This document shows positions 30,070-47,440 of a stretch of DNA of 64,000 nucleotides, piece after piece (within the stretch, counting starts at the first letter, position 1; each line of letters starts with the position of its first letter). The translations under genes and the position numbers were made by a program. Below the pieces are notes generated by a model that saw only the letters and a program-made list of their open reading frames with translations, was not told where the DNA came from and made no database searches. Origin of the DNA: Thermoproteota archaeon (GTDB taxonomy: Archaea; Thermoproteota; Thermoprotei_A; EX4484-217-1); the NCBI GenBank assembly GCA_029258915.1, contig JAPDJU010000002.1:1-64000 (forward strand), in the 5' to 3' direction.

Positions 30070-30642
30070 TTGGCAAGAATAGTCAAAACTGCTGACCCTT
30101 ATAAAGCAATTAAGTATTGGAGAAGCATAGCTTTACGTGAGAAAAATAACAATATTAAAAGAGCGAAAAAGCTTAGCAAACCGCAAATGTATATTATGGT
30201 GAACATTACTAGACCATTTTTTTCTAGAGTAGATAAGAATGATTCTAAATATATTAGGACATATAGAATGATAATCTACGGTATGCTAAATTATAGTAAG
30301 TCTTTAAAAACAATAACGCTGAGAGCCTCAGGCTATAACTTAGGTAAACGCTTAGCCGAAAGAGGCCTTATAAGAAGCATAGATGATTTACCTCAAGTAT
30401 TCATTAATCAGCGAATAGGCTTACTAGATATTGTTGATGAATCTTTTAATAACATGAAAATACACATTTATGAATGCATGAGCTGCTATGGTATCCCAAA
30501 CATTGGAATGCCTATGTGTGATTTTGAAGCAGGAGTAATTCAGGGAGCTTTAGAGTCTCTTATAGGCAAGAATATTACGAAAGAAAAATATTGTTGGGGA
30601 CTTGGATATTCTTTCTGTGGTTTTGAAGTGTATTTCGAATAA
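30070..30642 (+). CDS. V4R-domain protein
   Basis: 190 residues. The C-terminal two-thirds is a 4-vinyl reductase (V4R) domain: a helix with GYNLGKRLAERG, then the cysteine-rich core IYECMSCYGIPNIGMPMCDFEAG, and a YCWGLGYSFCGFEV ending. V4R domains bind small molecules or metal and often act as sensors. TTG start with GGTGAG nine bases upstream. It is followed after eight bases by the radical SAM/ModE fusion, then by the CO dehydrogenase operon. A sensor role for that operon is my inference. Confidence 0.8.
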   Translation: MARIVKTADPYKAIKYWRSIALREKNNNIKRAKKLSKPQMYIMVNITRPFFSRVDKNDSKYIRTYRMIIYGMLNYSKSLKTITLRASGYNLGKRLAERGLIRSIDDLPQVFINQRIGLLDIVDESFNNMKIHIYECMSCYGIPNIGMPMCDFEAGVIQGALESLIGKNITKEKYCWGLGYSFCGFEVYFE

Positions 30643-30650
30643 TCTTAGAG

Positions 30651-31802
30651 ATGAAAAGCATGGTTTGGAAAACACTAATAGTGAGAGTAACCGATTCTTG
30701 TGATGGAAATTGTTACGGGTGCTTATGGAGAAAGAGTAAAGCAAGCGGCTTCATGTTACCTATAACCGTTGTTAACAATGTTGTTCTATGTTTAAAAGAT
30801 TTCACATTTGATGAAACAGTAATTTTATGTCCTGATCCTCTAAATAACCCTAAGATATTGGATATTATTTTGCTCCTTAAGAAAGTTACGAAGAAAATGT
30901 ACCTGTTTATACCAATGCATTCCATAAGCAAAATACGTAATAAAAGAATACTAGAAAACATCGATGAGCTCGTATTGGTAACTACAACACCTGAAGATTT
31001 TAAAGTAAATGAGGAAAAATTAAAAATTATTCTAAGCCAGGGCTTCTCTAATACTGTACTATATGTTGCTATAGGTTCTCATATCATAAACATGAATAAT
31101 ATATTATCACTTGTAAATATGGGTAAGGAGTACGGTTTAAAAATTAGGATAGGTGAAATTCCGTACTCAACGACTTTAACCTTAGACCTTAAACCTATGT
31201 TCGCAAAGAAAGGATATACTGTTGGATTTAGTTATGGAATACTTTATGGATATATAGCTTCTACAGCATTTATAGGAAACTATCCTGCAGTAATATTAGC
31301 TAAACCTCTTAGTGGCGAATGTAGAAAACTTTTCATAGACCCTTACGGTAAAGTTAGTAAATGTCCTTTACAGGATTTTCAAATCAAAGTAGAGGATATT
31401 AACCCTAGTACATTGCGCAGCCTTATATTTTCAGAATGCCCTATTAGATGTAGAAGGTTTGAGCTCATTCCTAAAATTGAAATATCGCTAGTTACTCCTG
31501 ACGGTAAAGAAATACCATCTGAAATTCTTAGCCTTTTAGAAGTCATTTCTCATGTAAATTCGCTTAGAGCCGCATGTTCAATAATGGGGTTCCCGCCATC
31601 AACATACCTTGAGAAGGTAAGAAAAATTGAAAAAGATCTTGGCATAAAACTTTTAGTCTCTAAGAAGGGAGGTAGAGAGAAGGGCATTACTGTTCTTACG
31701 GATGAAGCTAGAAGAATACTTAGAATGTATAGGGAAATAAGAGATATGATTTCAGAAAGTTTATACAGCGAAAAAGGTATTATGAGATTTAAACTAGGAT
31801 AA
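30651..31802 (+). CDS. Radical SAM protein fused to a ModE-like DNA-binding domain
   Basis: 383 residues. The N-terminal part is a radical SAM domain with the CDGNCYGC (CX3CX2C) cluster motif at about residues 17-24. It is followed by further cysteines (GECRKLFIDPYGKVSKCPLQ, FSECPIRC) suggestive of an auxiliary cluster of the SPASM/twitch type. The last 110 residues form a ModE/LysR-type winged helix (AACSIMGFPPSTYLEKVRKIEKDLG) ending in KKGGREKGITVLTDEARRIL. That tail pattern is diagnostic of ModE N-domains. Combining both in one protein directly before a CO dehydrogenase operon suggests regulation tied to redox or metal state; this is inference. Confidence 0.8.
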   Translation: MKSMVWKTLIVRVTDSCDGNCYGCLWRKSKASGFMLPITVVNNVVLCLKDFTFDETVILCPDPLNNPKILDIILLLKKVTKKMYLFIPMHSISKIRNKRILENIDELVLVTTTPEDFKVNEEKLKIILSQGFSNTVLYVAIGSHIINMNNILSLVNMGKEYGLKIRIGEIPYSTTLTLDLKPMFAKKGYTVGFSYGILYGYIASTAFIGNYPAVILAKPLSGECRKLFIDPYGKVSKCPLQDFQIKVEDINPSTLRSLIFSECPIRCRRFELIPKIEISLVTPDGKEIPSEILSLLEVISHVNSLRAACSIMGFPPSTYLEKVRKIEKDLGIKLLVSKKGGREKGITVLTDEARRILRMYREIRDMISESLYSEKGIMRFKLG

Positions 31803-31821
31803 ATACAATAATACAGAGGAT

Positions 31822-31867
31822 TCGAATGTAGAACACGACATTTAACTCTGAATTCTATATTTCGAAC
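31822..31867. promoter_or_regulatory. Dyad upstream of the CO dehydrogenase operon
   Basis: Two imperfect inverted arms, TTCGAATGTAGAA (31822-31834) and TTCTATATTTCGAA (31854-31867), separated by 19 bases. They lie just upstream of a TATA-like element. Both arms contain the TTCGAA core. The position suits a regulator site for the coo/hyf operon, possibly for the ModE-domain protein, but a transcript-end hairpin of the upstream gene is an alternative. Confidence 0.45.
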
Positions 31868-31876
31868 CCGGTCACT

Positions 31877-31889
31877 TTATTATAAATAA
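31877..31889 (+). promoter_or_regulatory. TATA-like promoter element for the coo operon
   Basis: TTTATTATAAATA about 45 bases upstream of the first ATG, leaving room for a transcription start near 31910-31915. The leader would be short, with a GAGGTG ribosome site at 31921-31926. A second candidate, CTTAAATTATT at 31896, is also possible. Confidence 0.4.
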
Positions 31890-31931: not shown

Positions 31932-32588
31932 ATGATAGCTACCGAAGCCGTAAAAGTAAAAATACCTCCAGAGGAGCTTGAGAAAACCGTTATCTTCATA
32001 GACCCTGAAAAATGCATGGGATGTAGAAGCTGCGAAATAGCTTGTGCAGTAGAGCATTCACTTAGTAAAGAAGTCTACAGAGCACCTATGGAAAAACCGC
32101 TACCTAAGCCTAGGATTAGAATTTTAGTTGCAGACCTGTTTAATGTTCCTATGAGATGCCAGCACTGCAAAGATGCACCATGTATTAATGTTTGTCCAAC
32201 TAAGGCCTTAAGTAAAACGGATGAAGGATTTGTTATTTTGACCCCTGAAAAATGTATAGGATGTATTATGTGTGCTTTAGCATGTCCTTTCGGACATCCA
32301 AGGTACAATATTGAAACTAAAACCATAGTGAAATGCGATTTCTGCATTGACAGGGTTAGAGCTGGGAAACTTCCTGCTTGTGTTGAAGCATGCCCTACTG
32401 GAGCGTTGAAATATGGTAGACTTGAAGAACTTCTAGAGGAAGTTGCTGTGGAAAAAGCAAAGCAAATGATTAGTGGAATGGCTGTTCCAGGAATAGTATA
32501 TGTGAAACCCGTTATCCCAGCTAAGGCAGTTCCCGTACCTAAACCCTTAGATATCTATGCTAAATACTCCCCAGTTTCCTGGAGGTGA
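31932..32588 (+). CDS. cooF: CooF-type four-cluster ferredoxin
   Basis: 218 residues with 16 cysteines arranged for four [4Fe-4S] clusters: C28-31-34-38, C76-79-84-88, C108-111-114-118 and C135-138-150-154. This is the HycB/CooF electron-transfer subunit layout. CooF passes electrons from CO dehydrogenase to the membrane hydrogenase. It is first in the operon, and its stop codon lies inside the ribosome site of cooS. Confidence 0.9.
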   Translation: MIATEAVKVKIPPEELEKTVIFIDPEKCMGCRSCEIACAVEHSLSKEVYRAPMEKPLPKPRIRILVADLFNVPMRCQHCKDAPCINVCPTKALSKTDEGFVILTPEKCIGCIMCALACPFGHPRYNIETKTIVKCDFCIDRVRAGKLPACVEACPTGALKYGRLEELLEEVAVEKAKQMISGMAVPGIVYVKPVIPAKAVPVPKPLDIYAKYSPVSWR

Positions 32589-32595
32589 AATTTTT

Positions 32596-34506
32596 ATGTC
32601 CAAAAGATATGAGTATTTAAGGTTAAAACTACCTGCAAAACAGGTTTCAATAACACCTGGAGTAAGCGAGTTAATAGAGAAAGCTGAAGAGGAAGGTATT
32701 AAGCTGGTATGGCATAGGTGGCTTGAACAGCAGCCACAATGTGGTTTCGGATTACTAGGTGTTTGCTGTAGAAACTGCAATATGGGACCATGCCGCATAG
32801 ATCCATTTGGATACGGTCCAACTAGAGGTACATGTGGTGCAACTGCAGATACTATTGTTGCCAGAAACATTTTAAGAATGATAGCTGCAGGTGCTGCAGC
32901 CCACAGTGACCATGCTAGAGATATTAATAGGGTCTTAAGGCTTGTTGTTGAGGGTAAAGCACCAGCATACAAAATTACTGACTCTGAAAAACTGAGAACA
33001 GTAGCGCAGGCTTTAGGCATACCTGTTAAGGAGAGATCGGATTTAGAAATAGCTAAAGACCTTGTAGAAGTACTTGAAAGAGAGTTTGGCAAACAAGATG
33101 AGGAACCATTAAGCCTTGTTAAAGCGCTGGCACCTAAGAAGAGAATGAAAGTTTGGGAGAAAGCAGGGGTAATGCCCAGAAACATAGACAGAGAGATCTG
33201 TGAGTGTATGCATAGAACCCACGTAGGTGTTGATGCAGACCCCGTGAGCCTACTTCTACACGGCGTAAGAACGGCTCTTGCTGATGGGTGGAGCGGCTCA
33301 ATGATGGCAACTTTACTGAGTGACATCTTGTTCGGAACACCTAAACCGTTAAAGGCTGTAGCTAATCTCGGGGTTTTGAAAGAAAATATGGTAAACATTA
33401 TTGTTCACGGACATAACCCAGTATTATCGATGAAAATAGTTGAAGCGGCTTTATCCGATGAAATGCAGGAATATGCAAAGAAGTTCGGTGCTGAAGGAGT
33501 TAATGTTGCTGGAATGTGCTGTACAGGGAACGAGGTTCTAATGAGGCTTGGAGTCCCGATAGCTGGAAATATGTTAATGCAGGAGTTAGCAATAACAACA
33601 GGTGCTGTTGAAGCAATGATAGTAGATTATCAGTGCGTAATGCCTGCTCTAGCCGATGTTGCAGGCTGTTATCATACGAAACTAATAACGACTGAACCTA
33701 AAATGCACATACCCGGAGCACTACATATAGAGTTTGAACCTGAAAAAGCAGATGAAATAGCTAAGAAAATAGTTAAAGTAGCAATAGAGAATTATCCGAA
33801 TAGATCTAAAGAAAGAGTACATATACCTAAATATAAGATGGAATTAATGGCAGGCTTTAGCGTAGAAGCTATTTTAGAAGCTTTAGGTGGAACATTAGAT
33901 CCTCTAATAAATGCTTTGAAGGATGGAACAATTAAGGGCATTGCTGGAGTTGTTGGATGCGTTAATCCTAAGGTTAAACATAACTTCAGCCATGTAACAA
34001 TATCTAAGAAATTAATAGAAAACGACATATTAGTTGTAGGTACCGGATGCTGGGCAATAGCTGCTGGAATGCATGGACTATTATCGCCTGAAGCAGCTAA
34101 ATATGCAGGACCTGGATTAAGAAAGATTTGTGAAGCACTAAAGATACCTCCATGTCTCCACATGGGCAGCTGTGTTGACTGTTCAAGAATATTATTAGCA
34201 TTAAAAGCAATCTCAGAAGCACTAAACGTAGACATACCAGACCTACCTGTAGCAGGTTCAGCACCTGAATGGATGAGCGAGAAAGCTGTAAGCATAGGAA
34301 CATACTTTGTAGCTTCAGGAGTATTTACACATCTAGGTACAATACCACCTGTTTTAGGAAGCTTAAAAGTAACTAAGCTATTAACAGAAGACGTTGAAGA
34401 CGTTTTAGGAGGAAAGTTCTATGTAGAACCAGACCCAGAGAAAGCAGCGGAAACAATAATTTCAGTAATAATGGAGAAGAGAAAGAAACTACACTGGCCA
34501 ACGTAG
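32596..34506 (+). CDS. cooS: Anaerobic Ni-Fe-S carbon monoxide dehydrogenase, catalytic subunit
   Basis: 636 residues. It oxidises CO with water to CO2, two electrons and two protons. D- and B-cluster cysteines are at 49, 57 and 58, 61, 66, 80 with the exact spacing of known CooS proteins. All six C-cluster ligands are identifiable: the His in VHGHNP and cysteines in GMCCTG, DYQCVM, VVGCVN, GTGCWA and MGSCVD. The enzyme should be active. ATG 32596 is chosen for the perfect GGAGGTGA at 32581-32588; a frame extends upstream to 32557. Confidence 0.95.
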   Translation: MSKRYEYLRLKLPAKQVSITPGVSELIEKAEEEGIKLVWHRWLEQQPQCGFGLLGVCCRNCNMGPCRIDPFGYGPTRGTCGATADTIVARNILRMIAAGAAAHSDHARDINRVLRLVVEGKAPAYKITDSEKLRTVAQALGIPVKERSDLEIAKDLVEVLEREFGKQDEEPLSLVKALAPKKRMKVWEKAGVMPRNIDREICECMHRTHVGVDADPVSLLLHGVRTALADGWSGSMMATLLSDILFGTPKPLKAVANLGVLKENMVNIIVHGHNPVLSMKIVEAALSDEMQEYAKKFGAEGVNVAGMCCTGNEVLMRLGVPIAGNMLMQELAITTGAVEAMIVDYQCVMPALADVAGCYHTKLITTEPKMHIPGALHIEFEPEKADEIAKKIVKVAIENYPNRSKERVHIPKYKMELMAGFSVEAILEALGGTLDPLINALKDGTIKGIAGVVGCVNPKVKHNFSHVTISKKLIENDILVVGTGCWAIAAGMHGLLSPEAAKYAGPGLRKICEALKIPPCLHMGSCVDCSRILLALKAISEALNVDIPDLPVAGSAPEWMSEKAVSIGTYFVASGVFTHLGTIPPVLGSLKVTKLLTEDVEDVLGGKFYVEPDPEKAAETIISVIMEKRKKLHWPT

Positions 34507-34540: not shown

Positions 34541-35335
34541 ATGAAAATTTTAGTGGCCGGAAAGGGAGGTGTAGGTAAAACAACAATAGCAGCCCTACTT
34601 TCACACATTTTTTCTAATCACGAATACAAGGTATTAGCTTTAGATACAGATTCTGTACCAAATCTTGCCCAAAGTCTTGGAATACCATTAGATAAAGCTT
34701 TTAAAATAGTTCCATTAACGAAAAACATGAAGCTTATTGAGGAGAAAACTGGAGCTAGACCTGGGGAAGGATGGGGGGTTCTTTTCTCGTTAACACCTAA
34801 AGTCGATGATATTGTTGAAAGATATGGTATAAAAGTAAAAGATAATTTAAATTTAGTCGTTGTAGGAAGTATAGATGTTAGTAAGGAAGGATGCTTATGT
34901 CCAGCAATAGCTTTAGCAAAAGCGTTTTTAAGGCATGTGTTTTTGAAAAGAAAAGAGATAATTATAGTTGATACAGAAGCTGGAGCTGAAGTTTTCGGTA
35001 GAGGATTAGCAGAAAAATTTGATCTATTCCTATGCATAACAGAACCCACAATAAAGTCGTTAATAATATCTAAAAAATTGGTAAAAATGGCTAAAGAATT
35101 GGGAATTAAAAAAACAATTTTAGTAATAAATAAGGTTAGAGATTCTTTAGAAGCAGCTAAAAGCTATTCAAGAATTTTTCCTGAAAAAAACATACCTTAC
35201 CATATAGTTCACTATGATAATAATCTTCAAGAAGTAGAAATGAAAGGATTAGGAGTAACAAACCTTCCTGAGAATAGTATTATAGTTCATGATGTTTTAT
35301 TACTTTACAGTAAAATATCTAAGTTTATAAAATAA
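34541..35335 (+). CDS. cooC: CooC-type nickel insertion ATPase
   Basis: 264 residues, MinD/ParA-type P-loop ATPase with a deviant Walker A (GKGGVGKTT at residues 7-15). It also has a CLCP metal-binding motif near residue 112 that in CooC dimers holds Ni or Zn. It matures the CODH C-cluster. It lies 34 bases after cooS. Confidence 0.92.
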   Translation: MKILVAGKGGVGKTTIAALLSHIFSNHEYKVLALDTDSVPNLAQSLGIPLDKAFKIVPLTKNMKLIEEKTGARPGEGWGVLFSLTPKVDDIVERYGIKVKDNLNLVVVGSIDVSKEGCLCPAIALAKAFLRHVFLKRKEIIIVDTEAGAEVFGRGLAEKFDLFLCITEPTIKSLIISKKLVKMAKELGIKKTILVINKVRDSLEAAKSYSRIFPEKNIPYHIVHYDNNLQEVEMKGLGVTNLPENSIIVHDVLLLYSKISKFIK

Positions 35336-35565: not shown

Positions 35566-37521
35566 ATGGCAGAATATGCTATACTAGCGCCTATAGTATT
35601 GTTTGTTTTAGGTGCAGTAATCTCCAGTGTGTTTAAAGATAAGCTTGGAAACTATATTTCATCATTTTTCTCTCTTATTTCATCGCTCATAATATGTTAC
35701 TTGTCCTTAAGTGTTCTATTTTACAATAAAGTTTTAGAGTTACAGTTAAGACTTATTCCCGAAATAACTAAACTACCTTTACCAATAAACTTGAATGTAA
35801 TATATATTAAGATTGATTTTCTCTCAGCATTTTTTGCTCTTATTTTAGGTATTGTTGGCTTTGCTTCATCTATTTACGGAATAAGTTACATTAATAGATA
35901 TTTACATAAGCAGCATTTAGGATTTTACGGGTTAAATTATGCTTCATTCTTATGTCTCATGTACTTAGTGTTTATAATTCACGATATTTTCTGGTTTATC
36001 GTGTTTTGGGAGCTTATGACAGTTACATCACAATTCCTAGTATCATATGAGAAAGAGAAAATAGTCGCTAGGAAAGCTGCTTACAAATATTTCTGTATGA
36101 CAAAAGCGGGATCCGAAGTTATAATAGTTTCCGCCTTAATAATCCTAATTATCCTTTCTGGAATGCAGACCTCATTTGATACCGTAAAGAACTATACTGA
36201 AAAGCTAATTGTTGAAAACACTATTTTAGCTAATGTACTATTGGCTATGCTCTTTATAGGGTTTAGTGTTAAGGCAAGCCTTGTGCCCTTCCATACATGG
36301 CTTCCAGATGCCCACCCTGAAGCTCCAAGTAATGTTTCTGCATTACTTAGTGGTGTTATGATAAAGACTGCGGTTTACATGTTCTTCAGAGTTTTCTACT
36401 TTTTCTTTAAACCGACAATATATTGGGGGTACATAGTTGCAACCGTAGGAACAATTACTCTCTTTGTAGGTACAATGTATGCTATACTGCAAACGGACTC
36501 TAAGAGGCTTTTAGCATTCCATAGTATTGGGCAAATGGGATACATAGTTCTTGCATTAGGAGCCTCAATGGTTCTTTATTCTATGGGAGGAGAGAGCTAC
36601 GCTATCTTAGCTTCGGCTGCTTTCGCAGCATCACTATACCATGCTTTAAACCACGCTATGTTTAAGTCTCTTCTCTTCTTAACCGCAGGATCCGTAATTT
36701 ACAGAACAGGTTCAAGAAATCTTAATGTTTTAGGGGGCTTAGCGAAATTTATGCCAGTAACAGCTATTTCGGCTCTAATTGCTTCTCTTTCAATATCTGG
36801 TATTCCCCCGTTCAATGGTTTTGTAAGTAAATGGCTAATATATTCTTCAACAATACCTTCCTTTACTCCATTAACAATATATGGGGTTGTAGCTTTGTTT
36901 ATAAGTGCTGTAACTGCTGCTTCATTTGTAAAATATTTTACCACATTATTTACAAAGCCTTCAGCTTTAGAGTTTAAAGATATAAAAGAAGTTCCTACAG
37001 TAATGTTGTTTTCTCAAGTTTTCTTAGCTGTAATATGTACTATCTTAGGTATATATCCAGTTTTGCCATTAACAATAATATCCCCCATATCTAAACTCCT
37101 TTTTCCACTAGGAGATATTTTGTCCTATGTTAAAATATTACCAGGTATTGCTTTACTGAAGGTAGGGTTTGTTTCAATAAATTCTCCATTGATAATTGCT
37201 GTTTCTTTAACACTAATTTCCTCGGTAACTGCTGCTCTCTTACCACATAGAGTTAAAAAATTCAGTGTGTGGAGTTGTGGCGTTTCATTTAGAAAATATT
37301 TAATGAACATGCCCGCTGACTCCTATTTTAAACCGTTTGAGGAAAGCTTTGGTGAAATTTACTCTACAGGAAAGTTCTTACATAAGGTACTTGTTGAAGA
37401 TTTTATTAGAAACTACCTGTTTTCATCAAGAGTTCTAGCTAAAATTACTGAGAACTTCGCAGCTATGCTAACCTTATTTGTATTAATAATTATATTAATG
37501 CTACTACTGCATCTTGGGTGA
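35566..37521 (+). CDS. Group 4 hydrogenase membrane subunit HyfB/CooM-like (NuoL/antiporter fold)
   Basis: 651 residues, about 16 transmembrane helices of the proton-translocating NADH-quinone oxidoreductase/Mrp family. Motifs include the FWELMTVTSQFLVSYE helix with its Glu, the HTWLPDAHPEAPSNVSALLSG core and a Lys in VMIKTAVYM. The C-terminal extension (PADSYFKPFEESF) is typical of HyfB/HycC-like subunits. It should carry one ion channel of the complex. Confidence 0.9.
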   Translation: MAEYAILAPIVLFVLGAVISSVFKDKLGNYISSFFSLISSLIICYLSLSVLFYNKVLELQLRLIPEITKLPLPINLNVIYIKIDFLSAFFALILGIVGFASSIYGISYINRYLHKQHLGFYGLNYASFLCLMYLVFIIHDIFWFIVFWELMTVTSQFLVSYEKEKIVARKAAYKYFCMTKAGSEVIIVSALIILIILSGMQTSFDTVKNYTEKLIVENTILANVLLAMLFIGFSVKASLVPFHTWLPDAHPEAPSNVSALLSGVMIKTAVYMFFRVFYFFFKPTIYWGYIVATVGTITLFVGTMYAILQTDSKRLLAFHSIGQMGYIVLALGASMVLYSMGGESYAILASAAFAASLYHALNHAMFKSLLFLTAGSVIYRTGSRNLNVLGGLAKFMPVTAISALIASLSISGIPPFNGFVSKWLIYSSTIPSFTPLTIYGVVALFISAVTAASFVKYFTTLFTKPSALEFKDIKEVPTVMLFSQVFLAVICTILGIYPVLPLTIISPISKLLFPLGDILSYVKILPGIALLKVGFVSINSPLIIAVSLTLISSVTAALLPHRVKKFSVWSCGVSFRKYLMNMPADSYFKPFEESFGEIYSTGKFLHKVLVEDFIRNYLFSSRVLAKITENFAAMLTLFVLIIILMLLLHLG

Positions 37522-37527
37522 TCAAAT

Positions 37528-38421
37528 ATGGAATACATAGCAATTGTTCTCGCTAATATTGTAGCAATACTCATTATAGCGCCCATCATAGACGGTATAG
37601 AAAGAAAGATTAAAGCTAAGCTTCAATGTAGAAAAGGACCCCCAATATTGCAGACATGGTATGATTTAGTTAAGCTTTTTAGAAGGCCAAGTATAGTTAC
37701 TGAAGAATATTCTCTAGCATATGTTATTTCACCGTACATAATATTTGCTAATATGACATTGGCCTTAGCCCTAGTGCCTTCATTTACCCGTATTTCGCTA
37801 AGCTTTTTCGGAGACATCATAGTTTTAGTCTATCTTATAGCTTCTTCATCAATATTTTTAGCCATAGGTAGTATTTCTTCAGGTAATGTTTTCGCAACAA
37901 TAGGTGCTAATAGGGAAATTAGCTTAGCAACGCTATCTAAGCTTCTAATGGCTCTTGTTCTTGCTACATTTGCAACTTTAAAAAGAGCCCTCACGTTAGG
38001 GTCAATATTTCCAATAATACCTCCCTACACCCTATCAGCTATTATATCTATAATCTTGTTTGCAATTATAGCATATATTGACTGCTATAAACTACCTTTC
38101 GACATTCCTGAAGCAGAACCCGAGATAATTGATGGAATACTTGTAGAATATAGCGGTAAAAGTTTAGGTGTATTAAAGTATTCTACATATCTTAAGAGAA
38201 TACTTTTATTCACAATAATAGTAGATCTCATATTACCTAGGAACATACCTACCTTACTCTTGCCGATATCTTATTTTACTTTCCTTTTAGCTCTTTCAAT
38301 AACCTATGTTTGCGTTGAAACATATTTTGGAAGATTACGTATAGACCAGGCATTAAAGTTCATGAAAACAATGGTACCTATATTATTGGTGGTGTGGTTT
38401 ATTGCTTACCTCCATTACTGA
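37528..38421 (+). CDS. Group 4 hydrogenase membrane subunit HyfC/EchB-like (NuoH)
   Basis: 297 residues with about eight helices. It has the NuoH-family motifs DGIERKIKAKLQCRKGPPILQTWYDLVKLF near the N-terminus and the PFDIPEAEPEIIDGILVEYSG loop. This subunit anchors the hydrogenase arm to the membrane and sits next to the [NiFe] site. The last 20 bases overlap the following gene. Confidence 0.92.
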   Translation: MEYIAIVLANIVAILIIAPIIDGIERKIKAKLQCRKGPPILQTWYDLVKLFRRPSIVTEEYSLAYVISPYIIFANMTLALALVPSFTRISLSFFGDIIVLVYLIASSSIFLAIGSISSGNVFATIGANREISLATLSKLLMALVLATFATLKRALTLGSIFPIIPPYTLSAIISIILFAIIAYIDCYKLPFDIPEAEPEIIDGILVEYSGKSLGVLKYSTYLKRILLFTIIVDLILPRNIPTLLLPISYFTFLLALSITYVCVETYFGRLRIDQALKFMKTMVPILLVVWFIAYLHY

Positions 38422-40054
38422 AATATTAAACCTACTGAAGAAGTATGGTAAAGTAGAGAAAATACATAAAGATACATATGTCGTTGAGATAAGCCCGGGT
38501 AAGGTTAGAGAACTATGTGAAATACTTCACTGGAAATTAAATGGACACTTTTCGGTAACCGTGGGATCTGATGAAAGACCTGTAAATGGATATTTCGGAG
38601 TGTATCATGTGTTTTTACTAGATAAACAAAAGTTATCAGTAATAGTTCATGTTAAAGTAAACCCTGTAACGCTTAAAATACCATCAATAACCCCTATAAT
38701 ACCTGGAGCTAATTGGCATGAAAGAGAAGCCCACGACTTTTTCGGCATATTTTTTGAAGAACATCCTAACTTAGAAAGGCTTATATTACCATATGATTGG
38801 CCTGAAGGAATACATCCTTTAAGAAAAGATGTTAATGTAAGAGAGTTAAGATATAAGTTACTAAAGAAAGAAACCGGATTAGTTGTAGAAAAGAAAGCTG
38901 AGGAAGAATACATAGTACCTATTGGTCCTTATCACCCTGCGCTACATGAACCTGAATACTTTGAACTCTATGTTGAAGGAGAAAAAATAGTAGATGCTAG
39001 GTATAAGGGATTTCATGTTCATAGAGGTATAGAGAAGGTTGCTGAAGAACGGTTAACAATAAACCAAGTGCCTTTCATTGCAGAAAGGATATGTGGTATT
39101 TGCGGATACACTCATAATGTAGCCTATTGTCAGGCAGTAGAAAATGCTGCTAGGATAGATGTACCCTTAAGGGCAAAGTATATTAGAAGTATTCTTTTGG
39201 AAATAGAAAGAGTACATAGTCATCTTCTATGGTTTGGTGTACTTTTCCATCTACTTGGATTCGATACTGGTTTTATGATGACATGGCTTGTTAGAGAGAA
39301 AATAATGGATCTTGCGGAAATACTTACAGGGAATAGGAAAAACTATGGAATGAACCTGGTGGGTGGTGTTAGGAGGGATATAAATGAGGAAAAGATAAAG
39401 TTATCTTTGGAAACCCTAGACTATGTTGAGTATAAGTTAAGGAAAATTCTGGATAAAATGCTGAAGCTTAAGGAAATAACGTCTAGAACTAAGGAAATAG
39501 GTCTACTGAGCCGTGAAGAAGCTAGAAAGCTATCTGTTGTAGGACCTGTGGCTAGAGCTTCAGGTATAAGTACTGATGTTAGAAGGTACCACCCATACGC
39601 TGCCTACAGTGAGTTAGAATTTAAAGTTCCAGTATATGATGCCGGCGACGTCTACTCTAGAGCTTTAGTGAGGTATGATGAAATATTTGAATCAATAAGC
39701 ATGTTAAAGCAGTTGCTAAAAAATATTCCCAAAGGAGACTTAACGGCAGAAAACGTTAAAGTCCCAGAATACAGGAAGGGCCTAGGACTTACAGAAGCCC
39801 CTAGAGGCGAAAACGTACACTTAGTAATAACTGGTAGAGAAAATAAGGTTTACAGATGGCGTCCTCGAGCACCATCATACAATAATGTTCCCTCAACTTT
39901 AGTCATGCTTAAAGGAGAAAAACTAGCTGACGCCCCAGCAATAATAGCTAGTATCGATCCTTGCTTCTCATGCACAGACCACGTAGTTGTAATAGACGTT
40001 AGAACTAATGTAAAACAAGTCTTAAGGCTAAAAGAAATTGCTAGAGGGAAGTAG
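38402..40054 (+). CDS. Group 4 [NiFe] hydrogenase large subunit, NuoC-NuoD fusion (HyfG/HycE-like)
   Basis: 550 residues. Residues 1-170 form a NuoC-like domain (HEREAHDFFGIFF, LPYDWPEG.HPLRKD). The rest is the catalytic large subunit with both nickel-binding CxxC motifs: RICGICGYTHN near residue 230 and DPCFSCTDH near 520. All four ligands are present, so it is a genuine H2-evolving enzyme rather than a complex I relative. It starts at TTG 38402 with GGTGGTG six bases upstream, inside the previous gene. Confidence 0.93.
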   Translation: MLTSITEILNLLKKYGKVEKIHKDTYVVEISPGKVRELCEILHWKLNGHFSVTVGSDERPVNGYFGVYHVFLLDKQKLSVIVHVKVNPVTLKIPSITPIIPGANWHEREAHDFFGIFFEEHPNLERLILPYDWPEGIHPLRKDVNVRELRYKLLKKETGLVVEKKAEEEYIVPIGPYHPALHEPEYFELYVEGEKIVDARYKGFHVHRGIEKVAEERLTINQVPFIAERICGICGYTHNVAYCQAVENAARIDVPLRAKYIRSILLEIERVHSHLLWFGVLFHLLGFDTGFMMTWLVREKIMDLAEILTGNRKNYGMNLVGGVRRDINEEKIKLSLETLDYVEYKLRKILDKMLKLKEITSRTKEIGLLSREEARKLSVVGPVARASGISTDVRRYHPYAAYSELEFKVPVYDAGDVYSRALVRYDEIFESISMLKQLLKNIPKGDLTAENVKVPEYRKGLGLTEAPRGENVHLVITGRENKVYRWRPRAPSYNNVPSTLVMLKGEKLADAPAIIASIDPCFSCTDHVVVIDVRTNVKQVLRLKEIARGK

Positions 40055-40055
40055 C

Positions 40056-40565
40056 GTGAAAACCCCAAGAATAGACATATTTAAAGAAGCATTGAAAACA
40101 GGTGTCGTAACTAAAAAGTATCCGTTTGAACCTGTAGAAGCGCCTGAAGGATTTAGAGGTAAGCCAAGTATAGATTTTGAGAAATGTATTGGTTGTGAAG
40201 CATGTGTAAACATATGTCCACCTAATGCGTTAAGCGTCGAAATAGACACTAAGAGAGGTATAAAGAGGGTAATGTTATTTCTTGGTAGATGTATTTTCTG
40301 CGGAAGATGTCAGGATGTTTGCCCTACGGAGGCAATAAAGCTTTCCAGAGAATTTGAATTATCTTCTCTTAACTCTAAAGATTTGTATCAGATAGTGGAG
40401 TTAAAAATGGCTAAGTGTAAAATATGTGGTAGATATTATGCTACTGTAAGGCAGATATTGTTTACAGCTAAAAACGTACCTAAGGATCAAAGACCATTAC
40501 TTTTACTTTGTGATGAATGTAGGAGTAAAGTTTCAGCTAAACATATTTCTTACGCAAGGTGGTAG
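40056..40565 (+). CDS. Hydrogenase ferredoxin-like subunit (HyfH/CooX/NuoI-like)
   Basis: About 169 residues with two [4Fe-4S] motifs (CIGCEACVNICP and CIFCGRCQDVCP) that link CooF to the small subunit. A C-terminal CxxC...CxxC pair (CKIC...CDEC) probably binds zinc, as in some archaeal homologues. GTG start at 40056, two bases after the upstream stop, with GAGGGA before it. Confidence 0.9.
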   Translation: MKTPRIDIFKEALKTGVVTKKYPFEPVEAPEGFRGKPSIDFEKCIGCEACVNICPPNALSVEIDTKRGIKRVMLFLGRCIFCGRCQDVCPTEAIKLSREFELSSLNSKDLYQIVELKMAKCKICGRYYATVRQILFTAKNVPKDQRPLLLLCDECRSKVSAKHISYARW

Positions 40566-40567
40566 GG

Positions 40568-41128
40568 TTGAGTCTCAAACTGTTTAGAAGAAGCCTGTGG
40601 GTTTATCATTTAAATAGCGGTAGCTGTAATGGCTGCGATATTGAGGTTCTTAACATATTTACACCATATCATGATGTTGAAAGGCTAGGTATTAAGTTGG
40701 TTGCATCGCCTCGACATGCTGATGTTATCGTGTTTACTGGACCTATAACTAGGGAAACATTACCTAAAGCTATAAGAGCGTTTTTTGCGGTGCCTGAACC
40801 TAAAGCTGTAGTAGCTGTTGGCTCATGTGCCTGCGGGGGTGGAATATGGTATGATTCATACGCGGTTATAGGTGGAATAGAAGCTTTCTACAGAATTCTA
40901 GAAAACTACTATAAAATAAGACTGCCTCTAACAGTATATGTTCCTGGCTGTCCACCTAAACCTGAAGCAATAATATATGGGATTGCTGTCTTAAGAGGTG
41001 TTTTAAAGCAAAAACAGAGGAAAACATATTTCTTAGAGAAAGAAGTACCGGCTCTTACAAGAGATTTTATTGTGAATTTAGAGAAATACATGAAACAAGA
41101 AGGGGGAATTAATATTGGGAAAAAATAG
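40568..41128 (+). CDS. Hydrogenase small subunit (HyfI/CooL/NuoB-like)
   Basis: About 186 residues of the NuoB/small hydrogenase family carrying the proximal [4Fe-4S] cluster: cysteines in SCNGCDIEV, VGSCACGG and VPGCPPKPE. This cluster delivers electrons directly to the [NiFe] centre. The TTG at 40568 is chosen for AAGGTGG at 40556-40562; a GTG at 40559 would lie inside that ribosome site. Confidence 0.92.
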   Translation: MSLKLFRRSLWVYHLNSGSCNGCDIEVLNIFTPYHDVERLGIKLVASPRHADVIVFTGPITRETLPKAIRAFFAVPEPKAVVAVGSCACGGGIWYDSYAVIGGIEAFYRILENYYKIRLPLTVYVPGCPPKPEAIIYGIAVLRGVLKQKQRKTYFLEKEVPALTRDFIVNLEKYMKQEGGINIGKK

Positions 41129-41338: not shown

Positions 41339-42226
41339 ATGCTACCACAGCAGTTTATTATCGCTCCTATAGCACTTTTAATTACAGCATTTATCTTATC
41401 CGTTGTACTTAAAGGTAGAAAGTGTAACATTGTTGTTTCTCTTCTCTCAGCTACAGCGTCATTTCTAATGATATGGGCAGGTTTAAATGTCCTCCTAACC
41501 AATAAGCCTCTATCATACACTATTGTTCTATATAGGGTTAAAGGATTAACACTAGGATTGAATAGGCTGATTTTCGTTGTTGACCATTTATCAGCATTGT
41601 TTAGTGTAGCTCTTGGAATACTTGGATTCACTGTTTCAATTTATGCTATAAAATACATGGACCTTTATGTAGGGCATGAAAGTTTAAGGTTCTTCGGAGT
41701 AAACTACTCTAGCTTTCTGCTTATGATGTACCTTGTCATCACAGCTTACGATATTGTGTGGTTTATCGTGTTTTGGGAGTTGATGACTGTAACCTCTCAA
41801 TTTCTAGTTTCGTTCGAAAAAGAAAGGCCTGTAGCTAGAGCTGCGGGTTATAAGTATTTCTTCATGGCCAAAGCTGGTTCAGAACTCATAGTAGTGTTTA
41901 TTCTTATGGTGATCATATATCTTACACGGTTTAACACCAGCTTTGACGCAATAAGATATACGCTTTCATTGCTTGCACGAGCATATCCTGGTGTTACAGC
42001 TCTTCTTTTCGTGATCTTATTTATTGGATTAGGGGTTAAGGCTGCAATATATCCTCTACACTCATGGCTTCCGGACGCTCATTCTGAAGCTCCAAGTAAT
42101 ATTTCAGCTCTGCTTAGCGGTATAATGGTTAAAATGGCAGTATACATGATGGCACGTAGCTTTTACTGGTTTGCTCCTTCCTTAATTTACGTAGCACTTA
42201 CTAGACCTATATTAGAGGTGTTGTAA
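41339..42226 (+). CDS. Half-length HyfB/MrpA-type antiporter paralogue
   Basis: 295 residues, clearly paralogous to the 651-residue HyfB-like subunit upstream. It shares the SIYAIKYMD, FWELMTVTSQFLVSFEKE, HSWLPDAHSEAPSNISALLSG and MVKMAVYM blocks. It ends after about nine helices, just beyond the MVKMAVYM block that holds the conserved lysine, and lacks the C-terminal half. It starts the Mrp-like gene set. It may be a functional short subunit or a truncated duplicate; an intact ribosome context and coding frame favour expression. Confidence 0.75.
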   Translation: MLPQQFIIAPIALLITAFILSVVLKGRKCNIVVSLLSATASFLMIWAGLNVLLTNKPLSYTIVLYRVKGLTLGLNRLIFVVDHLSALFSVALGILGFTVSIYAIKYMDLYVGHESLRFFGVNYSSFLLMMYLVITAYDIVWFIVFWELMTVTSQFLVSFEKERPVARAAGYKYFFMAKAGSELIVVFILMVIIYLTRFNTSFDAIRYTLSLLARAYPGVTALLFVILFIGLGVKAAIYPLHSWLPDAHSEAPSNISALLSGIMVKMAVYMMARSFYWFAPSLIYVALTRPILEVL

Positions 42227-42229
42227 GCA

Positions 42230-42514
42230 GTGGATACAACTTACGTGCTCGACATTTACTTACCAGTAGTATTTGCTGTGTTTTTAGCAGCTTTCACACT
42301 TTACATTATTAGAATAGTTAAGGGGCCATCGGTAGTAGATATGGCTTTAGCTGTTGATTGCTTAGCCTTCGACTTAGCTGTTTTCATAGGATTACTTACA
42401 CTTTACTTTAGAACACCATTCCTAATTATTGGAGCTATTGCCTTAGCCCTATGGGCTTACATCTTGGACATATATATTGCAAAGTATTTTGTCAGAAGGG
42501 AGGTTGGTGAGTAG
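42230..42514 (+). CDS. MrpF/MbhB-like antiporter subunit
   Basis: 94 residues, three helices, with the MrpF motif RIVKGPSVVDMALAVD. Part of the Mrp-type cation/proton antiporter module found in membrane-bound hydrogenases (MbhB). GTG start four bases after the previous stop; its own stop overlaps the start of the next gene. Confidence 0.85.
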   Translation: MDTTYVLDIYLPVVFAVFLAAFTLYIIRIVKGPSVVDMALAVDCLAFDLAVFIGLLTLYFRTPFLIIGAIALALWAYILDIYIAKYFVRREVGE

Positions 42515-42912
42515 TGTTCGAAGTTATTGAATGGTTTGTTTTCATCATAGGACTCATATTGATAACAATAGGTGCAATATGTGATTTAGCTGGAGCTTTA
42601 GGTTTAGTTAGGTTTCCTAATTTCTTTGTTAGGCTTCATGCTGCAACAGTAGGAACAATAGGAGGAGCTGTAATTCCACTATTCGGTATAGCTTTAGTTT
42701 CAGCAGTTTCATCTCAGCTGGGACCCTTTAGATGGACTGTTGCAGGAGGAGCGGTTATAGCAGCATTTCTAATAATGATTGTTGCCCCCGCTGGCTCACA
42801 TGCACTAGCTTATGCGGCTCATAAAGCTAAAGTTGTTCCTGTTGAACCTAAGGTTTGCGATTTACTTGAAGAACATGAGAAAAGAAAAGCGAAGGAGGCT
42901 GAGAAGAAATGA
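42514..42912 (+). CDS. MrpG/MbhC-like antiporter subunit
   Basis: 132 residues, three helices with the MrpG pattern GAICDLAGALGLVRFPNFFVRLHAATVGTIGG and a charged tail. GTG start overlapping the previous stop by one base. A standard neighbour of MrpF. Confidence 0.87.
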   Translation: MFEVIEWFVFIIGLILITIGAICDLAGALGLVRFPNFFVRLHAATVGTIGGAVIPLFGIALVSAVSSQLGPFRWTVAGGAVIAAFLIMIVAPAGSHALAYAAHKAKVVPVEPKVCDLLEEHEKRKAKEAEKK

Positions 42913-43163
42913 TAACCTTAGGACTAGTTCTATTAGCTTACCTGTTTTCAATAGCTATGCTGTTCACATATAAAGCCATTACTGAGAAGGATTTAATCAA
43001 GGCAGTAATATTCTCTGCAAGCCAATCCGTAGCTTATGCTATTGCCTACGCTGTTCTTTTAGCTCCAGACATTATGCTAGCATATATAGCTATAGGCATA
43101 GGTGTTTACTCAATAATTCTACTCTATGTTATTTCAAAAACAGAGAGGTATGAGAGAGGGTAA
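42909..43163 (+). CDS. MbhD-like hydrogenase/antiporter subunit (DUF4040)
   Basis: 84 residues, three helices, matching the small MbhD/DUF4040 subunit that corresponds to a central part of MrpA. Motif TEKDLIKAVIFSASQSVAYAIAY. Four-base ATGA overlap with the mrpG gene. Confidence 0.8.
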   Translation: MITLGLVLLAYLFSIAMLFTYKAITEKDLIKAVIFSASQSVAYAIAYAVLLAPDIMLAYIAIGIGVYSIILLYVISKTERYERG

Positions 43164-43165
43164 AT

Positions 43166-43978
43166 ATGAAAGGGGTAAAAATACTATTCATACCTCTAAT
43201 GGGTTTAGTTGTAATACTGATAATGCTTATCCTAAGCTATGGTACGCTAGGATATTCACCAGCAGAGTACATTAGGAGTTTGGGGGAGTTTCTTTTAAGA
43301 CAAAGCTTTAATGTTTTTGAAAAAGAATGGTGGGTTGGAAGTCCAGAGGTAATTACTGCGACTCTCTGGGATTATAGAGGACTAGACACAGTATATGAGA
43401 CAACAGTTTTCTACTTGGCGGTAATAGGCTGTGTTTCTGTTTTCAGACTTCTACAACCCAAACTTGCGGAAATAACCAAAGAAAAAGAAGAATATGCGTT
43501 AACTGTTATAGTTAGAGTAGCTACGAAAATAGTTTTAGCAGTAATAATACTTATATCGATAAACATAGCTCTCCATGGTCACATAACTCCTGGTGGAGGA
43601 TTCCAAGCAGGCTCAGCTTTTGCGATAGCACCACTATTGGCTATAGCTGCTTTTTCAAGGTATTTCGTTGAAAAAATGGGTTTAAAAATAAACTTATCCC
43701 ATGCACTAAGATCTCTAGGTTTAATCATAATAGCTTTAGTGGCTTTGCTGCCTCTATTCTACTTCGGATATCTCCTACAAAACCAGGCTAAACCATGGTC
43801 TCCATTCCCGGGATACCCTATAGAAGTAAGTTTCCTTGAGTTAAGCGGCTCATTATTCCACTTTGACATAGGCGAATACCTCAACGTAGCTATGGGATTT
43901 TTAGCTATATTCCTTCTCCTATCATTACCTGAACGTGTCTTTAAAAAAGATATGGAGGTTGTGAAAAGTGAATCCTGA
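43166..43978 (+). CDS. MbhE-MrpB(MbhF) fusion subunit
   Basis: 270 residues. The first 100 correspond to MbhE (one helix, then an external loop with LWDYRGLDTVYETTVFYLAVIG). The rest is MrpB/MbhF with the diagnostic NIALHGHITPGGGFQAGSAFAIAPLLAIAA. In Thermococcales these are separate genes. The stop overlaps the next gene by eleven bases. Confidence 0.87.
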   Translation: MKGVKILFIPLMGLVVILIMLILSYGTLGYSPAEYIRSLGEFLLRQSFNVFEKEWWVGSPEVITATLWDYRGLDTVYETTVFYLAVIGCVSVFRLLQPKLAEITKEKEEYALTVIVRVATKIVLAVIILISINIALHGHITPGGGFQAGSAFAIAPLLAIAAFSRYFVEKMGLKINLSHALRSLGLIIIALVALLPLFYFGYLLQNQAKPWSPFPGYPIEVSFLELSGSLFHFDIGEYLNVAMGFLAIFLLLSLPERVFKKDMEVVKSES

Positions 43979-44363
43979 ACATGTAGTAGTCCTATACTTA
44001 TATGCTGCATTATTTGTAGTATTTGGTATTTCAGTTTACGGTATTGTTATTAAACCTCATATAGTTAAGAAGCTGATTGCATTATCAATACTTGGAGACA
44101 CGGCTAACACCTTAATAATACTTTTAGGCTATAGAACACTACCTAAACCTTGGCCACCAGTTTTCCCCGAGCTGGAACCCAGTTTAGAGCTAATTGAAGA
44201 ATTCACTAAACTATCTGTAGACCCTCTACCACAAGTGCTAGTTATAACGGCGATAGTCATTAACATGGCAGTTACAGCGCTTCTAGCGTTCCTGGCAATT
44301 CAAGTTTACAGGCTTTATGGCACTTTAGACTTTAGAAAAGTATTAAAGCTGAGGGGATGGTAG
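43968..44363 (+). CDS. MrpC/MbhG-like (NuoK-fold) subunit
   Basis: 131 residues, three helices, NuoK/MrpC fold with the LVITAIVINMAVTALLAFLAI helix near the C-terminus. A longer central loop rich in Pro (RTLPKPWPPVFPELEP) is typical of MbhG. GTG start inside the preceding gene. Confidence 0.87.
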   Translation: MNPEHVVVLYLYAALFVVFGISVYGIVIKPHIVKKLIALSILGDTANTLIILLGYRTLPKPWPPVFPELEPSLELIEEFTKLSVDPLPQVLVITAIVINMAVTALLAFLAIQVYRLYGTLDFRKVLKLRGW

Positions 44364-44365
44364 CT

Positions 44366-44872
44366 ATGGGGAAGCTTGTTAAAATAATATTACTTTCAAT
44401 ACCGTTATACATACTATACTTAGTGTTTGCAGGTGTAGTTACACTTACGGATATTGTTCTAGGATATATTGCCGCATTAATTACCGCAGCTATAACCTCC
44501 GAGCTTCTCATTAAAGAAAAAGAAAAGCTTACACAGTTAAGAAGATTAGTTCACTTGATTAAGTATTTCCTACTGTACATAACAATAATAGAATATAGAG
44601 CTCATTCCGATGTAATTAGAAGAATCTTTCACCCTAAAATGCCTATTAACCCCGGCATTATTAGAATACCTTACCATGTTAAATCAGACTATGCCCTAGT
44701 TACAATTGCAAATTCAATAACAAACACTCCTGGAACTGTAACTGTTGATATAGATAAAGAGGAAAAGAAGCTTTTCGTACACTGGATTGATGTTAAAGGT
44801 GTTGAAGAAGAATTCTGTTACAAAACAATATCTAAAAAATTTGAAGAACATGCTAAGAAAATTTTTGATTAA
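44366..44872 (+). CDS. MrpE/MbhA-like subunit
   Basis: 168 residues. Two N-terminal helices and a soluble ferredoxin-like C-terminal domain with the family's NPGIIRIPYHVKSDYALVTIANSITNTPGTVTVDI block. The ATG at 44366 is chosen for GAGGGG about ten bases upstream; an earlier ATG at 44357 would overlap the mrpC stop. Confidence 0.88.
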   Translation: MGKLVKIILLSIPLYILYLVFAGVVTLTDIVLGYIAALITAAITSELLIKEKEKLTQLRRLVHLIKYFLLYITIIEYRAHSDVIRRIFHPKMPINPGIIRIPYHVKSDYALVTIANSITNTPGTVTVDIDKEEKKLFVHWIDVKGVEEEFCYKTISKKFEEHAKKIFD

Positions 44873-44883
44873 GGTGATATGTG

Positions 44884-46485
44884 ATGGTTGAATACATTAT
44901 TCAAAACTACGACATAGTAACCGCATCCCTACCCGGGCTTGCAGTTTTAATTTCAGCTACAGGAGCATTTACACTACCACTATTACAGCTTATAACGAAA
45001 AATAGAAGAGCATGGGAAATTTATACAGCGTTATTCACATTCCTAGTAATGTGTCTAACATATAAGCTAATGTTTAAAGTATTTGAAGTAGGTAAGCCGC
45101 TGGTTTATACCTTCGGTGGATGGCCGCCGCCTGTTGGAATAGTCTACGAAGTCGATAGATTTAATGGATTACTTGGAGTCGTGGTTTCATCTATAATGTT
45201 CCTAGTAGCAATATACAGTATTAAATATTTAGAATTTGACGACGGTGTACAATGGTACTATACATTGTTTTTAGGATTAGAAGCCGGTATGCTTGGATGC
45301 ATGTATACTGGCGACTTCTTCAACTTATTCGTTATGATAGAAGTTACTGCTGTTTCAGCATATGCTCTTGTAGCTTTTAGAAGATACGATAGAATAGCTA
45401 TTGAAGCTGCTATGAAATACGCTATCTTTGGAGCTTTAGCTACAACAATGTACTTTACAGCAATAATTTTCGCATATGGTAGCTTGGGAACTTTAAACAT
45501 GGCTGATATGGCTTTAAAGTTTAGAAACATAGAAGTTCCTGTTACAGGTTTACCATTTGGAATAATACATTACGGTATGGCATTATTCATAGTTTTTGCT
45601 CTATGGTCCTTTGCATTTAAGGCAGCACTTTTTCCAAACCACTTCTGGCTTCCAGATGCACATGCTGCTGCACCATCATCTATATCTGCTCTACTTTCAG
45701 GCTTAGTTGTTAAGGTCGGTATTTACGCTATAGCTAGATTCCTATATACAATATTTACAGCTTCAGAAGCCATAGCATCCGTGCATAGGTTAGCTTTACT
45801 AGCAATATTTGTTATGGGTGTTTCCTCGGCTTTCCTTGGAGCAATACTTATGTTCATACAAAAAGATATTAAGAGGCTTATAGCATACAGCACAATACTT
45901 AACATAGGATATATAGCTATTGGTTTAGGATTAGGCTCAGCATTTGGAGCATTAGCAGCAACATACCATATAGTAAACCATGCAGTAGCTAAGGCACTGC
46001 TCTTCATGGCTGCAGGAGCATATATTCACTACGCTGGAACAAGAGATATTGAGAAACTTTCAGGAATAGGCAGAGCAATGCCAATAACAACCTTAGCATT
46101 CATTATAGGGGCATTTTCGCTGGCGGGAATACCGCCACTAAACGCCTTCATGAGCAAATTCCTACTCTACGGTGCGTTAATAGCCACAGGAGTGCTACCA
46201 TTGGTAGCTATAGTAATTATCCCAAGCGTAATAGCGTTCTTAGCATATCTAAAACTAGTGTATACGATTTTCGTTAAACCCATGCCTGAAGAATACGCTA
46301 AAAAGAAAATTAAAGACCACCCGCTACTTACAGGCCCTGTAGTGATCCTAGCAATAGCGTGCATACTTTTAGGAATAGGAGCACCGTACATAATAAACAA
46401 TTACATATGGCCAGCAACACAATCACTCCTAGACTGGTCAAGCTACACGGAAGCAATGATGCAAATAGCTCAGAAACTACCATAA
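44884..46485 (+). CDS. MrpD/MbhH-like antiporter subunit
   Basis: 533 residues, about 14 helices of the NuoL/M/N-MrpD family. Key features are MYTGDFFNLFVMIEVTAVSAYALVAF (Glu in helix 5), the FKAALFPNHFWLPDAHAAAPSSISALLSGLVVKVG core and KDIKRLIAYST. It should form a full ion channel. It is the last gene of the operon, followed convergently by a VapC gene two bases later. Confidence 0.92.
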   Translation: MVEYIIQNYDIVTASLPGLAVLISATGAFTLPLLQLITKNRRAWEIYTALFTFLVMCLTYKLMFKVFEVGKPLVYTFGGWPPPVGIVYEVDRFNGLLGVVVSSIMFLVAIYSIKYLEFDDGVQWYYTLFLGLEAGMLGCMYTGDFFNLFVMIEVTAVSAYALVAFRRYDRIAIEAAMKYAIFGALATTMYFTAIIFAYGSLGTLNMADMALKFRNIEVPVTGLPFGIIHYGMALFIVFALWSFAFKAALFPNHFWLPDAHAAAPSSISALLSGLVVKVGIYAIARFLYTIFTASEAIASVHRLALLAIFVMGVSSAFLGAILMFIQKDIKRLIAYSTILNIGYIAIGLGLGSAFGALAATYHIVNHAVAKALLFMAAGAYIHYAGTRDIEKLSGIGRAMPITTLAFIIGAFSLAGIPPLNAFMSKFLLYGALIATGVLPLVAIVIIPSVIAFLAYLKLVYTIFVKPMPEEYAKKKIKDHPLLTGPVVILAIACILLGIGAPYIINNYIWPATQSLLDWSSYTEAMMQIAQKLP

Positions 46486-46487
46486 AA

Positions 46488-46937
46488 CTACATCTTACCA
46501 GCCATAGCCTTCAGCTCTCTAGGAGAAATAATTATATTATTTACAGGGTATCTCATGTTTTTAAGGAAGGAAATAAGTTTCTCGTCGACCGTTAAAAACT
46601 TCATATTTAAAACGTAAGCTGTTGAATAAAGTAAATTATCTATCATATCTTTATGACCATTTATCCACATTTTATATGCTAAAGCATATGCTTTAGTAGG
46701 AATCTCAACTTTAAAATACGTTTCTTTAACAGCCCTAATACCCCTCAATATGATCTCTATCTCTTCAAACAAACCAAGTCTGACTATTTTCCATGAAGCT
46801 TCGAGAAGACTTAATTCTGAATAGAAAATTTCGAAAAACCTAAAATATTTTATGGCCTCAATAATTTCCTGTTCAACAGCAAAACCTAGAGAAGGCAAGA
46901 TAAAACTAGTGTCTATTAGTATTTTAGGCTTCAACAT
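46488..46937 (-). CDS. VapC-type PIN-domain toxin (module 1)
   Basis: 149 residues, PIN-domain ribonuclease. Acidic residues sit at ILIDTSFILP near the N-terminus, in LSLLEA, and in GHKDMIDNLLYSTA and TVDEKLI near the C-terminus. It is closely related to the second PIN protein at 48851-49321 (shared NGH-[KR]-D and FLT-x-[DL] segments). The AbrB-type antitoxin gene lies 36 bases upstream on the same strand. Confidence 0.85.
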   Translation of the reverse strand: MLKPKILIDTSFILPSLGFAVEQEIIEAIKYFRFFEIFYSELSLLEASWKIVRLGLFEEIEIILRGIRAVKETYFKVEIPTKAYALAYKMWINGHKDMIDNLLYSTAYVLNMKFLTVDEKLISFLKNMRYPVNNIIISPRELKAMAGKM

Positions 46938-46973
46938 ATTTTCTTCATCCCCTTTAGATGGTCTTCTTGACTT

Positions 46974-47231: not shown

Positions 47232-47440
47232 AAATATACACCAAACCAATATATTAGAGTCAGACATATAAAAAGACTCCGACAGCAATAGTTTAAACAC
47301 GGAAGAAATAGATAATTATTGGATATGATGAAACCGCTAGTGACTAAGCATCAATATGCTGAATGAACCTCGGACTGAAAAAGAAACACTTTAATAAAAT
47401 TTAAAATTTTTTAACCAAAATATGTTATAATGAGGTAAAC

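Follow-up and report, generated by a model that had tools for sequence, protein, structure and literature searches.

Which regulator switches on the carbon monoxide (CO)-oxidising operon of a Thermoproteota archaeon, and how would such a regulator respond to CO without a heme protein? The window analysed here is a stretch of 64,000 nucleotides (positions 1 to 64,000, forward strand) of contig JAPDJU010000002.1 from assembly GCA_029258915.1. An earlier note on this DNA had described two genes in tandem about 130 bases before cooF, one for a V4R-domain protein and the other for a protein that joins a CX3CX2C radical SAM domain to a ModE-like winged helix. It had seen none of the regulators CooA, RcoM and CorQR in the window, and had suggested that the pair is a sensor-regulator in which the radical SAM cluster tunes DNA binding. 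Both reading frames were found at the positions given there (Table 1). The end of corR and the start of cooF are separated by 129 bp, and cooF, cooS, cooC and a hydrogenase/antiporter cluster follow.

Table 1. Features of the corQR-coo region; positions are those of the window.
Feature	Position	Strand	Basis or remark
corQ homologue, V4R-domain protein, 190 aa, TTG start as listed	30070..30642	+	Pfam V4R; MJ1460 / PoxR / MopR fold
corR homologue, MoaA-like degenerate radical SAM/twitch with C-terminal ModE/LysR winged helix, 383 aa	30651..31802	+	
CorR CX3CX2C motif, codons of C17 / C21 / C24	30699..30722	+	
CorR C60-P-D-P, Cys replacing the first Gly of radical-SAM GGEP	30828..30839	+	MoaA profile alignment
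CorR C224-x13-C238 and C263, vestige of the C-terminal (twitch) cluster motif of MoaA	31320..31439	+	
CorR ModE/LysR-type winged helix, residues 291-369	31521..31757	+	TIGR00637; ModE folds 1b9m, 2ijl
Distal predicted operator half-site GAACACG (exact)	31831..31837	+	partner TTC 31821-31823
Proximal predicted operator half-site GAACCCG	31864..31870	+	33 bp from distal; partner TTC 31853-31855
TATA-like element TTTATTATAAAT of the cooF promoter	31876..31887	+	sequence; same place in homologous promoters
cooF, ferredoxin-like electron carrier	31932..32588	+	
cooS, Ni-CO dehydrogenase; true start probably ATG 32596	32557..34506	+	
cooC, CODH nickel-insertion ATPase	34541..35335	+	
Energy-converting hydrogenase genes: HyfB-, HyfC-like, fused NuoC/D-type large subunit, FeS, small subunit	35566..41128	+	
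Mrp-type antiporter subunit genes, downstream of the hydrogenase	41339..46485	+	

Two further observations concern the surroundings of this cluster. Just after the antiporter genes lie small open reading frames for PIN-domain-like and AbrB-like proteins (46488-47300 and 48815-49321), possibly toxin-antitoxin pairs. A MATE-type transporter gene at 25936-27100 is split over three successive frames, with breaks near 26680 and 26873 that reflect either a pseudogene or sequencing errors.

CorQR of Thermococcus onnurineus NA1 is reportedly the subject of work by Kim et al. in 2015, and the original CorQR paper is said to name the two proteins the opposite way from the description cited below; in this analysis, corQ denotes the V4R gene. 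In T. onnurineus, CorQR consists of a V4R (4-vinyl reductase) protein and a LysR-type HTH protein that flank the CODH cluster, the HTH protein being called CorQ and the V4R protein CorR in that description (PMC6557876). The system is described as CO-responsive (PMC6557876, PMC4791640) and as an activator of the CODH cluster (PMC4791640). The window likewise encodes V4R and HTH proteins in tandem beside a CODH cluster. Over their full length, including the CX3CX2C region, the V4R protein is 56% and the HTH protein 36% identical to the T. onnurineus proteins, and the T. onnurineus locus has the same order of V4R gene, HTH gene, cooF and cooS. This locus is anchored by its cooF promoter, which contains the exact sequence of the 36-bp EnfR footprint known from that species (PMC10570040); the same 36 bp are also present in a sibling genome.

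From the full-length homology and the shared gene order, the window pair is almost certainly a CorQR homologue of identical architecture. The earlier premise that the known regulators are absent was therefore wrong, because the pair itself is CorQR. The two systems share the same conserved cysteines and the same operator core; they differ in the low identity of the HTH protein, in the diverged proximal operator site of the window, and in the spacing of corQ and corR, which are 8 bp apart in the window and overlap in T. onnurineus. CooA and RcoM have with CorQR the role of CO-responsive control of CODH operons in common, but they are heme proteins of unrelated families, whereas no heme domain is reported in CorQR. 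This locus adds a copy to the known CorQR switches for CO-oxidising genes in heat-loving archaea, a type first described in T. onnurineus; its host here is a thermoproteote close to Desulfurococcales. By analogy with T. onnurineus, the window CorQR would activate its CODH operon in a CO-dependent manner.

Homologues of the pair were found beside CODH genes rather than mostly away from CODH or hydrogenase genes. Full-length CorR was detected in 9 of 398 Thermoproteota genomes, in all nine directly before cooF-cooS. Ten of the 398 genomes carry a CooS at least 66% identical to that of the window, and nine of these ten have CorR; in the exception (G275), cooS-cooC lies beside apparent acetyl-CoA synthase genes, with no cooF or hydrogenase in the stretch read. 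CorR was also present in 16 of 94 Thermococcales genomes, with the order corQ-corR-cooF-cooS in all ten loci opened. A scan of GTDB contigs with CorQ returned 17 loci, from Desulfurococcales, Staphylothermus, Thermococci, one member of the Archaeoglobales and one contaminated Thermotogota bin, and the order corQ-corR-cooF was found wherever the contig continues (16/16). The apparently bacterial CorQR in the Thermotogota MAG was rejected as a misbinned Thermococcus contig, which shares 88% of its DNA letters with a Thermococcus genome. Given that the readable full-length homologues adjoin cooF-cooS except for one paralogue, and that a conserved predicted operator precedes cooF (see below), there is strong support for the proposal that the pair serves the CO operon as sensor and regulator.

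The N-terminal part of CorR was then assigned from profiles and structure. In the single window protein, sequence support for a radical SAM domain is weak (TIGR04317, E 0.03), as is a match to SPASM; at the level of the family (17 members) it is better, with Radical_SAM matching 7 of the 17 (best E 0.0013) and TIGR04317 reaching 8.8e-6. Matches to tungsten-cofactor maturase models were weak. An AlphaFold model built from 17 family members (pLDDT 82) had MoaA as its best PDB match in Foldseek (E 9e-9), followed by other radical SAM/twitch/SPASM enzymes and ModE, and on this ground the domain assignment of the earlier note was right. CorR thus shows a partial TIM-barrel fold with the CX3CX2C motif at residues 17-24, although C21 or C17 is altered in some homologues. 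Its likeness to MoaA (GTP 3',8-cyclase) extends over residues ~7-265. In a profile-profile alignment with archaeal MoaA (probability 85%, E 7e-6), C60-P61-D62-P63 falls on GGEP, and C224 and C238 coincide with the second and third cysteines of CX2CX13C in MoaA. In contrast to MoaA, CorR has C-P-N/D-P in place of GGEP, lacks the first twitch cysteine, and has gained a conserved C263 and a winged helix.

The pattern of conservation bears on what this fold does. Radical SAM enzymes contact SAM through the GGE motif; this motif is absent from CorR, and GGEP is replaced in all 22 homologues compared, which argues against SAM chemistry. C24 and C60 are kept in 22/22, C17 in 21/22 (Phe in one) and C21 in 19/22 (His in three, all of one clade). 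C224, C238 and C263 are kept in 20 of the 22 and missing in G177 and in a paralogue from G111, so a second cluster is not universal. The six or seven conserved cysteines of the family argue for Fe-S clusters. As judged from these residues, CorR probably carries an Fe-S cluster, and on balance we favour a cluster that works without SAM chemistry; the C60 position could supply the fourth ligand. That CorR is still an active radical SAM enzyme, which modifies a protein (CorQ or CooS) or a cofactor and whose winged helix merely couples this activity to the promoter, is in keeping with the MoaA fold, with the CX3CX2C motif intact in the window protein and most homologues, and with the weak maturase matches. 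We consider it improbable in view of the universal replacement of GGEP and the change of one of the three cluster cysteines in two separate lineages. The suggestion that a radical SAM cluster tunes DNA binding is plausible, but with GGEP lost in every homologue we rate a fold that bears a cluster and does no SAM chemistry above an active enzyme. A literature search on V4R with radical SAM and CODH, or on radical SAM-winged helix fusions, did not find this architecture described, the original CorQR paper being outside its reach. It seems not to have been pointed out before that CorR, one half of the switch, is a degenerate radical SAM/twitch enzyme fused to a DNA-binding domain.

The C-terminal winged helix of CorR matches TIGR00637 (ModE) with an E value of 2.1e-8, which is below the curated cut-off, and HTH_1 (LysR) with 0.004; in the family alignment, 17/17 members match both models (best 3e-11 and 2e-10, respectively), and the structure matches include ModE folds. 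The claimed fusion, including its ModE-like C-terminus, was thus borne out. The winged helix is of the same type as in ModE and LysR-type regulators, but in CorR it stands at the C-terminus, without MOP/TOBE and without a periplasmic-binding-like effector domain. CorR is not a LysR-type regulator, with its HTH at the C-terminus and a radical SAM fold in the remainder. The closeness to ModE (TIGR00637) might instead mark a molybdate/tungstate regulator that merely lies beside the CO operon. This is scarcely credible: Pfam gave no match to MOP/TOBE oxyanion-binding domains in CorR, the winged helix is C-terminal rather than N-terminal, and the neighbours are CODH genes, not Mo/W genes. In the window's genome, moreover, a different protein of 359 aa (L002, G000:C4) has a ModE-type winged helix at its N-terminus and is encoded beside an apparent tungstate/molybdate transporter binding-protein gene; this protein is the probable true ModE of the genome.

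For CorQ, the V4R domain reported earlier was confirmed by Pfam (E 3.4e-13, above the gathering score), and the protein also matches the C-terminal V4R half of NCBIfam MsvR (E 1.9e-12). Its fold matches the V4R protein MJ1460 and the phenol-sensor domains of PoxR/MopR, and Cys136, Cys139, Cys150, Cys175 and Cys183 are invariant among 16 homologues. In MopR-type sensors, the positions equivalent to the CorQ cysteines presumably hold zinc. CorQ itself is not an MsvR, as it has the V4R part only, without the N-terminal HTH, and scores 47 bits against a cut-off of 220. The V4R fold and the cysteine spacing are common to CorQ, MsvR and the XylR/DmpR-type V4R sensors (PoxR, MopR); unlike these, CorQ has no DNA-binding or AAA domain, and the regulator is a separate protein. 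The spacing of C150/C175/C183 resembles that of C206/C232/C240 in the V4R domain of MaMsvR, whose DNA binding is redox-controlled and in which mutation of the three conserved V4R cysteines alters this redox-dependent binding (PMC3729527). Both this spacing and the match to the MsvR V4R region would suit a general redox or oxygen sensor for which CO is not the ligand, such that the oxygen-sensitive CODH is made only under reducing conditions. However, the pair was found only with cooFS operons in the sampled genomes, not with oxidative-stress genes, and the T. onnurineus CorQR is described as CO-responsive; we regard a purely redox-sensing pair as unlikely.

A candidate operator was identified in the corR-cooF intergenic regions of 26 CorQ-containing loci; G177 was left out of the count because no GAACACG-like site was seen there. 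The heptamer GAACACG lies directly upstream of the cooF TATA box, exactly in 21 of 26 promoters (0.1 expected, at most 2 in 200 dinucleotide shuffles) and within one mismatch in all 26 (1.8 expected, at most 5); as the promoters are related, the shuffles overstate their independence, though the intergenic DNA around the element has diverged. Additional half-sites are seen repeatedly at -15 (inverted; TTC-N8-GAA), at -32/-33 (direct) and at -47 (inverted), giving a pattern of two inverted repeats about three helical turns apart. The predicted operator of the window is imperfect, with one mismatch in the proximal half-site and inverted partners that keep little beyond TTC, and the nearest relative of the window (L056) also has two half-sites 33 bp apart. 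The dyad noted earlier at 31822-31867 overlaps this conserved element but is better described as the two half-sites upstream of the TATA box (Table 1). CorR probably binds the GAACACG element. A count of the strict pattern CGTGTTC-N7/8-GAA over the window's genome gave 3, and that of a reversed control 4, so no regulon is claimed beyond the cooF promoter.

The position of this element also bears on the direction of control. In T. onnurineus, 3 bp separate the half-site from the EnfR repressor footprint that follows it; this places the half-site upstream of the core promoter, as suits an activator. CorR might conversely repress cooF until CO releases it, as could be argued from the repressor function of ModE and from a site near the TATA box. 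Such repression is very improbable, since the site lies upstream of the core promoter, activation by CorQR has been reported (PMC4791640), and it is over the TATA-like region that EnfR, the known repressor of CODH, binds (PMC10570040). A Tfx-family protein, which is a relative of EnfR, is encoded in the window's genome (L188, G000:C7:56041-56430) and scores above the family cut-off.

Overall, we propose with a probability of about 0.7 that the pair is a CorQR CO-responsive activator, in which CorR combines a MoaA-like fold turned Fe-S sensor with a winged helix that acts on GAACACG. Its computed basis comprises family membership, architecture, loss of GGEP, gene association and operator conservation. 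The winged helix of CorR would bind the half-sites just upstream of the cooF BRE/TATA, sitting there either as a single dimer or as two dimers spaced by about three helical turns, and from the upstream site it could help to recruit TBP/TFB. The N-terminal fold would have become a sensor, probably without SAM catalysis, with the CX3CX2C cysteines and C60, plus C224/C238/C263, probably holding one or two Fe-S clusters. The state of the cluster (reduction, CO occupancy or loss), together with the cysteine-rich V4R partner CorQ as a co-sensor, would then decide whether CorR acts as an activator, making the system heme-free and responsive to CO or redox state. In this scheme we infer DNA binding, cluster content, CO as the signal or its binding, and activation. 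Direct sensing of CO by the CorR cluster is rather doubtful; CO would otherwise be sensed by CorQ or through the redox state. For the fully specified version, a radical SAM enzyme turned transcription factor with C60 in the SAM site, a SAM-independent Fe-S CO/redox sensor, a ModE-type winged helix and a two-dimer operator upstream of TATA, we put the chances slightly short of even.

The predicted GAACACG operator and the radical SAM/twitch origin appear previously unrecognised, and they are properties of the whole CorR family, not of the window alone. If CorR is indeed a radical-SAM-derived Fe-S sensor, it would represent a new route from an enzyme fold to a transcription factor. Its degenerate radical SAM half offers a concrete way to test CO sensing in heat-loving archaea without a heme regulator, through the DNA element and through defined residues (C17, C21, C24, C60, C224, C238 and C263 of CorR; C136, C139, C150, C175 and C183 of CorQ). 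T. onnurineus, which attracts interest as a producer of hydrogen from CO, is a tractable host for such tests.

Variants of the system were found as well. Three CorR homologues (G005, G241 and G199; loci L034, L035 and L036) are encoded immediately before cooF-cooS; no CorQ was detected for these, which makes the V4R partner dispensable in some cases. In at least two of these three loci, a different inverted repeat (TGGAA-N8-TTCCA) lies ahead of the TATA box of cooF, and the recognition-helix sequence of these homologues is different; the joint change of helix and repeat is a weak observation from three related loci. G111 encodes a divergent CorR-like paralogue of 528 aa (L037, 8686-10272) that has CX3CX2C, C60 and a 150-aa C-terminal extension. 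It adjoins formate dehydrogenase, hydrogenase and formate-transporter-like genes, and might be a regulator of formate hydrogenlyase built on the same plan. In an Archaeoglobales MAG (L063), corQR-cooFSC adjoins genes for HdrB-like and iron-sulfur proteins, with no hydrogenase nearby; CO oxidation is perhaps coupled there to a heterodisulfide-reductase-type partner.
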